DNA of 64,000 bases from Sphingobium sp. DEHP117 (GTDB lineage Bacteria; Pseudomonadota; Alphaproteobacteria; Sphingomonadales; Sphingomonadaceae), in contig NZ_JAPFBJ010000001.1 in NCBI RefSeq assembly GCF_030867385.1, positions 620,001 through 684,000 of the forward strand. Direction: 5' to 3'. This document shows, one piece after another, positions 38,997 through 41,241 of the stretch (position 1 is its first letter; every line of letters starts with the position of its first letter). The notes under the pieces are model-generated. The model was given only the letters and a program-made list of their open reading frames with translations, was not told the DNA's origin and did not search any database. Made by a program: the position numbers and the translations under genes.

Positions 38997-39137
38997 CTGA
39001 AATTCCGTTGTTGCGGAATTTCAGGGGTCGGTCCCGGCCCTCTCCCCCTCCCAACCTCCCGATATGGTATCCTATGAGAGGTTGGGAGGGGGAGAGGGCT
39101 GGTGCGGCTCTCAAAATTCGCGGTAAAGCGAATTTTG
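38997..39137. repeat. 24-bp-stem palindromic repeat, copy 2, with flanking hairpins
   Basis: The main stem pairs 39037-39060 with 39076-39099 (one mismatch, loop 15 nt) and is almost identical to copies at 10214 and 49433. It is bracketed by two further perfect hairpins: CTGAAATTCCG/CGGAATTTCAG (38997-39024) and CAAAATTCGC/GCGAATTTTG (39112-39137). The array fills the divergent dapB/sirtuin intergenic space. Confidence 0.85.
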
Positions 39138-39860: not shown

Positions 39861-39956
39861 TGAATGCGGACTGCTGGGGGGCGACGACATTGCGGACATC
39901 CCCTCCGTCGTCGCCCCGGGCTTGACCCGGGGTCCCGCTTTTTTGATGTTCCGACG

Positions 39957-40256
39957 ATGCGGGACACGAAACAGGGCGGATGGGTCTATATGATGGCGGA
40001 CCGCTATCGCGGCACTCTGTATGTGGGCGTCACATCCGATCTCCCGGCGCGCATTTACCAGCATCGAAGCGGCACCGGCTCCGACTTCTGCGCAAAATAT
40101 GGCCTATCTCGGTTGGTATGGGCGGTGCATGGCGAAGATATCCTGAGTTGCATTGCGCAGGAGAAGCGTATCAAGCGCTGGCGGCGTCAGTGGAAGTTCG
40201 ACCTGATCGAGCGCGGCAATCCGGAATGGCGCGATTTGTTCGATCTGCTGGCCTGA
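39957..40256 (+). CDS. GIY-YIG nuclease family protein, array copy 1
   Basis: The 99-residue product is a minimal GIY-YIG domain of the COG2827 type: W9-V10-Y11 stands for GIY, Y22-V23-G24 for YIG, R32 is the conserved catalytic Arg, and E69 in AQEKRIKRWRRQWKFDLI is the probable metal-binding Glu, with NPEWRDL at the end. The family is annotated as putative endonucleases of unknown role. The gene is 18 bp inside a 29-bp inverted-repeat arm. The start ATG at 39957 is shared by all three copies. Confidence 0.82.
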   Translation: MRDTKQGGWVYMMADRYRGTLYVGVTSDLPARIYQHRSGTGSDFCAKYGLSRLVWAVHGEDILSCIAQEKRIKRWRRQWKFDLIERGNPEWRDLFDLLA

Positions 40257-40423
40257 AAGAACAGCGGGACCCCGGGTCAAGCCCGGGGTGACGGTGAGGA
40301 TTAGGCAGCTCACCTCTTACATATCAGCCCCTTCGGACCGACTTGTGACGACAATATTGCGGACATCCCCTCCTTCGTCACCCCGGGCTTGACCCGGGGT
40401 CCCGCTTTTTTGATGTTCCGACG

Positions 40424-40723
40424 ATGCGTCACACGAAACAGGGCGGATGGGTCTATATGATGGCGGACCGCTATCGCGGCACTCTGTATGTGGGCGTCAC
40501 ATCCGATCTCCCGGCGCGCATTTACCAGCATCGAACCGGCACTGACTCCGACTTCTGCGTAAAATATGGACCAACTCGGTTGGTATGGGCGGAGCATGGC
40601 GATGATATCCTGAGTTGCATTGCGCAGGAGAAGCGTATCAAGCGCTGGCGGCGTCAGTGGAAGTTCGACCTGATCGAACGCGGTAATCCGGAATGGCGCG
40701 ATCTGTTCGATCTGCTGGCCTGA
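40424..40723 (+). CDS. GIY-YIG nuclease family protein, array copy 2
   Basis: Same 99-residue architecture as copy 1, with W9-V10-Y11, Y22-V23-G24, R32 and E69 all kept. It differs from copy 1 at eight residues: D3H, S38T, G41D, A46V, L50P, S51T, V57E and E60D. Seven of these fall between residues 38 and 60. No stop or frameshift is present, so the copy appears intact despite being a duplicate. It lies exactly 467 bp from both neighbours. Confidence 0.82.
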   Translation: MRHTKQGGWVYMMADRYRGTLYVGVTSDLPARIYQHRTGTDSDFCVKYGPTRLVWAEHGDDILSCIAQEKRIKRWRRQWKFDLIERGNPEWRDLFDLLA

Positions 40724-40890
40724 AAGAACAGCGGGACCCCGGGTCAAGCCCGGGGTGACGGTGAGGATTAGGCAGCTCACCTCTTACATATCAGCCCCTT
40801 CGGACCGACTTGTGACGACAATATTGCGGACATCTCCTTCTTCGTCACCCCGGGCTTGACCCGGGGTCCCGCTTTTTTGATGTTCCGACG

Positions 40891-41190
40891 ATGCGGGACA
40901 CGAAACAGGGCGGATGGGTCTATATGATGGCGGACCGCTATCGCGGCACTCTGTATGTGGGTGTCACATCCGATCTCCCGGCGCGCATTTACCAGCATCG
41001 AAGCGGCACCGGCTCCTATTTCTGCGCAAAATATGGCCTATCTCGGTTGGTATGGGCGGCGCATGGCGAAGATATCGTGAGTTGCATTGCGCAGGAGAAG
41101 CGTATCAAGCGCTGGCGGCGTCAGTGGAAGTTCGACCTGATCGAACGCGGTAATCCGGAATGGCGCGATCTGTTCGATCTGCTGGCCTGA
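40891..41190 (+). CDS. GIY-YIG nuclease family protein, array copy 3
   Basis: Intact 99-residue copy, differing from copy 1 only at D43Y, V57A and L63V, all in the central segment. Its 3' synonymous changes match copy 2, which suggests copies 2 and 3 share a later duplication or exchanged their ends. The right inverted-repeat arm is followed directly by unrelated sequence and the end of the MHS transporter gene. Confidence 0.82.
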   Translation: MRDTKQGGWVYMMADRYRGTLYVGVTSDLPARIYQHRSGTGSYFCAKYGLSRLVWAAHGEDIVSCIAQEKRIKRWRRQWKFDLIERGNPEWRDLFDLLA

Positions 41191-41241
41191 AAGAACAGCG
41201 GGACCCCGGGTCAAGCCCGGGGTGACGGAGAGGTAGGGTCG

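Follow-up and report, generated by a model that had tools for sequence, protein, structure and literature searches.

A GIY-YIG nuclease gene between inverted CGTC-tagged REP palindromes: a candidate mobile element in Sphingobium and other bacteria

Introduction

Repetitive extragenic palindromes (REPs) are divided into the GTAG- and CGTC-tagged superfamilies (Di Nocera, De Gregorio & Rocco 2013, PMC3733652). The passages of that survey dealing with CGTC-REPs describe them as palindromes of 20-40 bp with an unpaired CGTC tag at one end, 8-9-bp stems and 4-5-nt loops, which occur mainly in alphaproteobacteria and mainly as head-to-head dimers, and which include the Neisseria dRS3 and Rickettsia RPE-4/6 repeats (PMC3733652). 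According to the same passages, CGTC-REPs "apparently lack a dedicated transposase": no tyrosine transposase gene was reported to be flanked by CGTC repeats, and the few links to other transposases were considered fortuitous (PMC3733652).

A 64-kb stretch of the 3.59-Mb genome of Sphingobium sp. DEHP117 (C1:620001-684000, hereafter the window), a member of the same genus as the genome, taken to be S. fluviale, used for comparison, contains three tandem copies of a short gene for a GIY-YIG nuclease, each enclosed by inverted palindromes. What are these units, and could the nuclease act on the palindromes that flank it? The initial annotation of the locus proposed a mobile-looking, REPIN-like unit of a kind not previously described, and left to be asked whether homologues carry such arms, whether related genomes have empty sites, and how close strains differ. 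The evidence presented below argues that each unit is probably an autonomous REP element, whose sole enzyme would drive its own movement and that of gene-less derivatives.

Results and Discussion

Organization of the tandem array

Tandem Repeats Finder placed the array at positions 39882-41233 of the window (period 467, 2.9 copies, 95% matches), and both this analysis and the open reading frames bear out the proposed arrangement of three equal-length genes at a 467-bp pitch between 29-bp inverted arms (Table 1). The two arms are 317 nt apart in every unit, the element measures about 385 bp from REP to REP, and the repeated 467-bp unit comprises an 82-bp spacer besides the gene and arms. Extended arm lengths are 34 nt in unit 1 (94% complementarity), 34 nt in unit 2 (97%) and 43 nt in unit 3 (91%). 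The arms had been described as reverse complements of each other; they are indeed inverted, but not all are perfect, since the left arm of unit 1 reads CGTCGCC instead of CGTCACC. Relative to protein 3, identity is 97% for protein 1 and 90% for protein 2. With up to three mismatches allowed, the palindrome core has six matches in the window, all in the array, compared with 0.09 expected in shuffled sequences, which excludes chance.

Table 1. Features of the triplet array (positions in the window; gene rows begin at the ORF start)
Feature	Position	Strand	Remarks
Left extension outside REP	39861..39908	.	common to the S. fluviale copy at another locus
Unit 1 left CGTC-REP	39909..39937	+	CGTCGCCCCGGGCTTGACCCGGGGTCCCG; one change relative to the other arms
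Unit 1 GIY-YIG nuclease gene	39957..40256	+	99 codons and stop
Unit 1 right CGTC-REP, inverted	40265..40293	-	
Spacer between units 1 and 2, 82 bp	40294..40375	.	right flank and left flank of the element, duplicated along with it
Unit 2 left CGTC-REP	40376..40404	+	CGTC tag, stem ACCCCGGG, loop CTTGA, stem CCCGGGGT, tail CCCG
Unit 2 GIY-YIG nuclease gene	40424..40723	+	99 codons
Unit 2 right CGTC-REP, inverted	40732..40760	-	
Spacer between units 2 and 3, 82 bp	40761..40842	.	
Unit 3 left CGTC-REP	40843..40871	+	
Unit 3 GIY-YIG nuclease gene	40891..41190	+	99 codons
Unit 3 right CGTC-REP, inverted	41199..41227	-	

Because every spacer joins the right flank of the element to its left flank, the triplet appears to be a later tandem duplication of one inserted copy together with its flanks. 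Short stretches of the first spacer recur in the flanks of a deletion derivative on contig C3 (see below) and in those of the S. fluviale copy. Flanking sequence is shared among the window copy, the C3 derivative and the copy in S. fluviale, and part of it is also present at the triplet site in two relatives with no visible element. Since the parts that persist at this site in G042 and G054 include stretches of the left extension, the latter may be a target repeat rather than a component of the element. The array is located between a sirtuin-like and a transporter-like gene, as named from their translations. Directly upstream of the sirtuin-like gene there is also a 25-bp inverted repeat (39034-39102, CCGGCCCTCTCCCCCTCCCAACCTC / GAGGTTGGGAGGGGGAGAGGGCTGG, 19 nt apart) forming a hairpin that has no CGTC tag.

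The arms as CGTC-tagged REPs

Each arm core folds on its own, as the initial annotation had noted, and consists of a CGTC tag, an 8-bp stem, a 5-nt loop and a tail; folded as DNA, the three stretches examined in unit 2 give -10.3 to -10.7 kcal/mol (z -2.8 to -3.9). The impression that this palindrome was a private sequence did not hold, as the arms appear to represent one type of the published CGTC-tagged REP superfamily, arranged in head-to-head dimers, and different nuclease lineages have their own types. In the features that PMC3733652 describes for CGTC-REPs, the arms agree in the unpaired CGTC tag, the palindrome size, the 8-bp stem opening with an A-T pair, the 5-nt loop, the short tail and the predominance of head-to-head dimers. 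They differ in the second stem pair, which is C-G here whereas it is almost always A/T in the superfamily, and in the tail, which is CCCG in the window whereas CCA is the commonest published form; CCA-type tails are present in relatives. A further difference is that the published repeats were described without a dedicated transposase, the term GIY-YIG being absent from the text of that paper as retrieved.

The GIY-YIG protein

The only Pfam match of the protein is PF01541 (41.6 bits, cut-off 22.6). In an alignment of 126 rows, which excludes eight loci with in-frame stops and short matches, E69, K73 and N88 are invariant, R32 and H36 are conserved in 125 and 124 rows, respectively, W75 and K80 are nearly invariant, and Y22 is conserved. 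We take R32, H36, E69, N88 and Y22 to fill the catalytic-residue roles of the GIY-YIG fold. Sequence comparisons show a conserved nuclease under purifying selection, with dN/dS of about 0.11 relative both to the S. fluviale copy (0.031/0.288) and to a further copy of the source genome at C1:51304 (0.18/1.69); the ratios among the three tandem copies are higher (0.17 to 0.58) and are based on few changes.

The AlphaFold2 model has a pLDDT of 91.7. Among solved folds, Foldseek ranks highest the UPF0213 protein BH0048 (E 2.8e-3) and, with E 0.019 and above, the branched-DNA nuclease Slx1; no hit reaches E 0.001. Such a fold would be compatible with a structure-specific nuclease whose substrates are extruded hairpins. 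UPF0213-type proteins and Slx1 are thus the nearest structural relatives, but the UPF0213-type genes differ from the REP-type genes in phylogeny and context: 30 such proteins form a separate clade (support 0.885) without any REP-type protein, and no tagged hairpin was found on either side of the gene at any of 30 UPF0213-type loci from the same bacterial family. COG2827, to which the protein had originally been assigned, is presumably the group of the UPF0213-like gene, and the label is accordingly a loose one for the REP-type protein.

The source genome contains nine PF01541 matches, seven of which are located between inverted CGTC hairpins; the other two are the UPF0213-like gene and a UvrC-sized gene. 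The seven REP-flanked paralogs have hairpins of four types, namely CCCCGGG (four copies), ATTCCCGC, ATCCCCGC/ATTCCCGC with another loop, and ATGCTGAA, so that paralogs within one genome have different, gene-matched hairpins; the C3:121727-type paralog, for example, has CGTCATGCTGAACTTGTTTCAGCATCCA arms.

Association of the nuclease gene with REPs across bacteria

Loci came from a pattern search across the species genomes of GTDB (71 loci), from paralogs within the Sphingomonadaceae (60 loci picked from among the matches listed, mostly in genomes with several hits), from plasmid records and from the source genome. A tagged hairpin was defined by a CGTC, TGTC, CCTC, GGTC or AGTC tag, a stem of at least 7 bp with at most one mismatch, a loop of 3-6 nt and a distance of at most 260 bp from the gene. 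In the raw set of 139 loci, inverted tagged hairpins were found on both sides of the gene in 95, on one side in 19 and on neither side in 25. After removal of the UPF0213-like gene and one duplicate (L053 = L187), both sides were occupied in 94 of 137 distinct loci and one side in 19, and 74 of the 137 have the exact CGTC tag on both sides. Most of the relatives examined are thus flanked, and by arms of the same kind. Counted by set with the duplicate included, hairpins on both sides were found at 4/4 REP-type paralogs of the source genome, 37/71 loci of the GTDB scan, 3/3 plasmid loci and 51/60 family paralogs. Some of the 43 loci lacking one or both tagged hairpins have inverted repeats of another form and others have none; conversely, a few of the 94 armed pairs may include a neighbouring or chance hairpin. 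The REP-to-REP length falls in a narrow range (median 390, quartiles 382-432, range 329-679).

Random gene-sized placements within the same loci had hairpins on both sides in 1 of 1,286 cases, and a second draw gave 5 of 1,275 (one with the exact CGTC tag). An unrestricted inverted-repeat score, which also detects other tags, was at least 40 in 60 of the 71 GTDB-scan loci, compared with per-locus control maxima of 20-41, one of which reached 40. All 15 same-genus loci selected for DNA similarity to the window unit (ten of them new, five already in the set) have hairpins on both sides. Eight further plasmid-record loci included four with matched tagged arms (Rhizobium CIAT894, Azospirillum, Aeromonas and S. 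meliloti); such arms were absent at the Photobacterium, Rhizobium L51/94 and Planktothrix loci, and the hairpins of Sinorhizobium C101 were unmatched. REP hairpins are terminator-like and common in some genomes, which raises the prospect of a chance arrangement, an assembly artefact or ordinary terminators. The two control draws (6/2,561 placements), the bare UPF0213-type genes (0/30) and the recurrence in independent genomes exclude these as an explanation of the gene-REP association, and we consider the probability of such an origin negligible. The association is well supported.

A census of REP cores is confounded, as the gene's own arms count as cores, and was not relied on (cores in 17 of 19 genomes with a close relative at best E <=1e-36 versus 20 of 130 others, among the matches listed).

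Matching of nuclease and arm types

RAYT transposases are associated with protein-specific REP types, and the GIY-YIG genes follow a similar pattern. In the 94 distinct armed loci the two arms of a locus are a median of two edits apart, and protein distance tracks REP distance (Mantel r 0.57, with none of 999 permutations as high). When arms were shuffled only among paralogs of the same genome, the mean r dropped to 0.25 (maximum 0.45) and none of 999 shuffles reached the observed value; in 48 of 52 loci with diverged paralogs, the arms are nearer to those of the closest homologue in another genome than to those of the paralogs at home. With the duplicate locus still included, these results were unchanged. 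These two comparisons show, at the level of sequence, that nuclease lineages have their own REP types and that the arms follow the gene, not the genome. It should be noted that such tracking is also expected from joint inheritance and would not by itself prove an action of the nuclease on the arms.

The matching bears on the proposal that CGTC-REPs are spread by a RAYT, another IS200-type transposase or an insertion sequence, with the GIY-YIG gene riding along as a passenger or a nuclease serving the host. The source genome does encode two Y1_Tnp (Y1 transposase) proteins with equal scores, at C1:742401 and C1:744330, 1.9 kb apart, and a window-type REP core is present in three genomes (G070, G116 and G195) with no relative of the gene among the matches listed at the cut-off of E 1e-15. 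Against this, neither Y1 gene has perfect hairpins (stem at least 7 bp) in the flanks examined, CGTC repeats have few and fortuitous transposase links in the published description (PMC3733652), and paralog-specific matched arms in tens of loci are not expected for a passenger, which makes this explanation unlikely. A RAYT origin was rejected on the same absence of perfect hairpins in the flanks of the two Y1_Tnp genes.

Gene-less derivatives and element-free sites

The exact REP core occurs 14 times in the source genome, always in inverted, head-to-head pairs. Four of the seven pairs contain the gene at an equal core spacing of 356, namely the triplet and a fourth copy at C1:51304-51678, whose protein is 74% identical. 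The three gene-less pairs are shorter (spacing 125, 173 and 135). Read by eye, the pair at C3:115574 retains both ends of the gene but not its middle, and clearly has the appearance of an internal deletion derivative; the other two retain only traces of the gene 5' end.

Related genomes were compared at one genome per species. The four copies in G170 and the four in G131 have unrelated surroundings; their similarity begins up to 25-30 bp beyond the left REP and breaks off 10-60 bp beyond the right REP (both read by eye). Among eight relatives inspected at the triplet site, seven have neither gene nor core, and G042 is broken there by contig ends. The closest relative, G032 (flanks 94% identical), lacks the element at this site and has one at another locus, which in turn is empty in G042, G044 and the source genome. 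The C1:51304 copy is absent at its site in 3/3 relatives, and so is the C3:115574 derivative, one of the three having a different REP dimer there. The short dimer at C1:331654 is absent in 2/2 relatives; it is flanked by the 10-bp direct repeat TGCGGGTTTA, present as one copy in the relatives, and is the sole site with a clear direct repeat. The dimer at C3:542574 is absent in G042 and present in G032, and is thus inherited.

An element located at the end of a coding gene in G016 and G018 (L288, L289) was found in none of the three relatives examined (G030, G022 and G051). About 20 bp of the element-free sequence are replaced at the G016 site, with no duplication seen, compared with the 10-bp direct repeat at C1:331654. 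In comparison with the three element-free relatives, the L288/L289 element seems to replace the last codons of the host gene. At the L161 site, the element is absent from G198 and the flanks are rearranged. Searches by tblastn found no gene at the element-free sites, the junctions of which are mostly not base-perfect. The motif GCGGAC[AG]T, present outside the arms in 9 of 190 flanks versus 0 of 188 controls, was rejected as a target rule because it is too weak.

The expectation of a mobile, REPIN-like unit is therefore supported by flanked relatives, by sites lacking the element in related species and by gene-less derivatives. Neither outcome that the initial annotation named as contrary to it, homologues mostly devoid of flanking palindromes or a lack of empty sites and movement between related strains, was obtained. 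Mobility is well supported by these genome comparisons; the absence of an element could partly reflect deletion, gain and loss not always being separable. The proposed comparison of close strains gave a divided answer: among four plasmid-bearing Sphingobium strains one short REP dimer is present in three plasmids and missing in one, but the gene element is fixed at one site in all four (frameshifted in one).

This stable position, together with purifying selection and the presence of Slx1 among the nearest solved folds, would suit a structure-specific nuclease akin to Slx1 that serves the host by trimming hairpins or cruciforms formed by REPs, which would be kept nearby either as substrate or as hairpins for its own regulation. 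We regard such a housekeeping role as rather improbable: multiple copies are dispersed and end sharply, some stand in tandem, one has become a deletion derivative and the presence is patchy, all of which points to a selfish element. Homing would be another way for the gene to come to lie between REPs, with pre-existing short REP dimers serving as the target, the nuclease cutting them and recombination between the REP arms then copying the gene into them. Homing endonucleases of the GIY-YIG type are known, and relative G010 has a gene-less REP dimer at the site of the G023 element. That dimer, however, belongs to another REP type, and the element-free sites of G030, G022 and G051 show no REP dimer; moreover, the three gene-less dimers of the source genome retain gene remnants and for that reason look like deletions, not unoccupied targets. 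Homing into REP dimers is therefore quite improbable.

Proposed mechanism and comparison with known systems

The recurrence of the gene-REP pairing across many bacteria makes the nuclease a strong candidate for the enzyme that spreads CGTC-REPs. In the autonomous-element reading favoured here, the nuclease would recognise its own REP type, probably as an extruded hairpin or cruciform, and would nick or cut there, after which host replication or repair may copy the REP-to-REP segment into a new site. Host repair has to be invoked because, to our knowledge, GIY-YIG enzymes do not join strands. The nuclease could also act in trans on gene-less dimers, and such action would explain CGTC-REPs as non-autonomous derivatives, as is thought of GTAG-REPs and the RAYT transposases. 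More tentatively, and with the balance leaning somewhat against it, we suggest an unrecognised class of mobile elements: a 99-aa GIY-YIG nuclease, acting alone and without any strand-transfer enzyme, would copy itself and REP-ended derivatives through REP-hairpin cutting and host repair. This nuclease might be the enzyme that the CGTC-REP superfamily as a whole, Neisseria dRS3 included, has seemed to lack.

The unit resembles the RAYT (TnpA-REP) REPtrons and REPINs, in the form in which PMC3733652 outlines them, in having the gene of a small DNA-cutting protein flanked by inverted REPs, plus gene-less dimers. RAYTs, however, are HUH tyrosine transposases paired with GTAG-REPs, whereas a GIY-YIG nuclease of unrelated fold and chemistry is paired here with CGTC-REPs; the unit encodes no Y1/HUH transposase (PF01541 being the only Pfam match), and its tag is CGTC, not GTAG. 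As with MITEs and their parent insertion sequences, the internally deleted copy retains both ends of the autonomous element, but the unit has no DDE or HUH transposase, its REP ends are self-folding, and there is no consistent target duplication. The GIY-YIG nuclease is the cutting enzyme of selfish homing endonucleases and Penelope-like elements. The unit would share with them the use of such a nuclease to cut for a selfish element, and differs in having no intron or reverse transcriptase, a single 99-aa domain and REP ends. A phage origin was rejected, as a search of 50,697 phage records at E 1e-8 gave no match to the protein.

Consistent with the initial impression that no REP-GIY-YIG element had been described, no paper linking GIY-YIG proteins to REPs was found among the matches listed in the open-access literature, subscription journals and preprints lying outside its scope. 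GIY-YIG combined with 'repetitive extragenic palindromic' or with 'dRS3' gave no open-access paper, and co-mentions with 'RAYT' were judged off-topic from titles and abstract starts. Term searches of the text as retrieved found no 'GIY' in PMC6006769, PMC5896051, PMC5082802 or PMC12306157, and neither 'palindrom' nor 'inverted repeat' in the 2006 survey of the GIY-YIG superfamily (PMC1564403). CGTC-REPs were named as a superfamily in 2013 without a dedicated transposase, and a lineage-paired candidate enzyme makes this question directly testable. If the proposal is correct, unrelated enzymes gave rise to REP-plus-nuclease systems on at least two occasions; a large group of small GIY-YIG proteins that lack a name would gain a function; and a minimal self-spreading element would consist of about 0.4 kb with one 99-codon gene.

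Genomic contexts of individual elements

Several loci deserve mention for their surroundings. Contig C1 of genome G199 has 54 exact REP cores, with at least five inverted pairs 58-59 bp apart in a REPIN-like arrangement; the arms of its resident relative (L178, the one examined) are of a different type from these cores. In Neisseria gonorrhoeae (L155, NZ_CP119142.1 1879719-1883988), a GIY-YIG relative lies between two dRS3-type CGTC hairpins, CGTCATTCCC, with extended inverted similarity; this 2.17-Mb record has a plasmid label in PLSDB and is chromosome-sized. The relative on plasmid p1 of Planktothrix agardhii (L275) is located between an MmeI-type restriction gene and the DISARM gene drmA, and has AT-rich inverted repeats on its flanks that carry no CGTC tag; in cyanobacteria the arms may be of a different type. 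In two genera (C2:617018 of the source genome, L002, and L168 of G131), REP-flanked GIY-YIG genes whose arms are of the ATTCCCGC type are located directly upstream of the same gene, presumably pheS, reflecting either an old shared insertion or one site used repeatedly. Finally, on plasmid AZO_p3 of Azospirillum lipoferum (L272), sufB and sufC are separated by a REP-flanked GIY-YIG gene.
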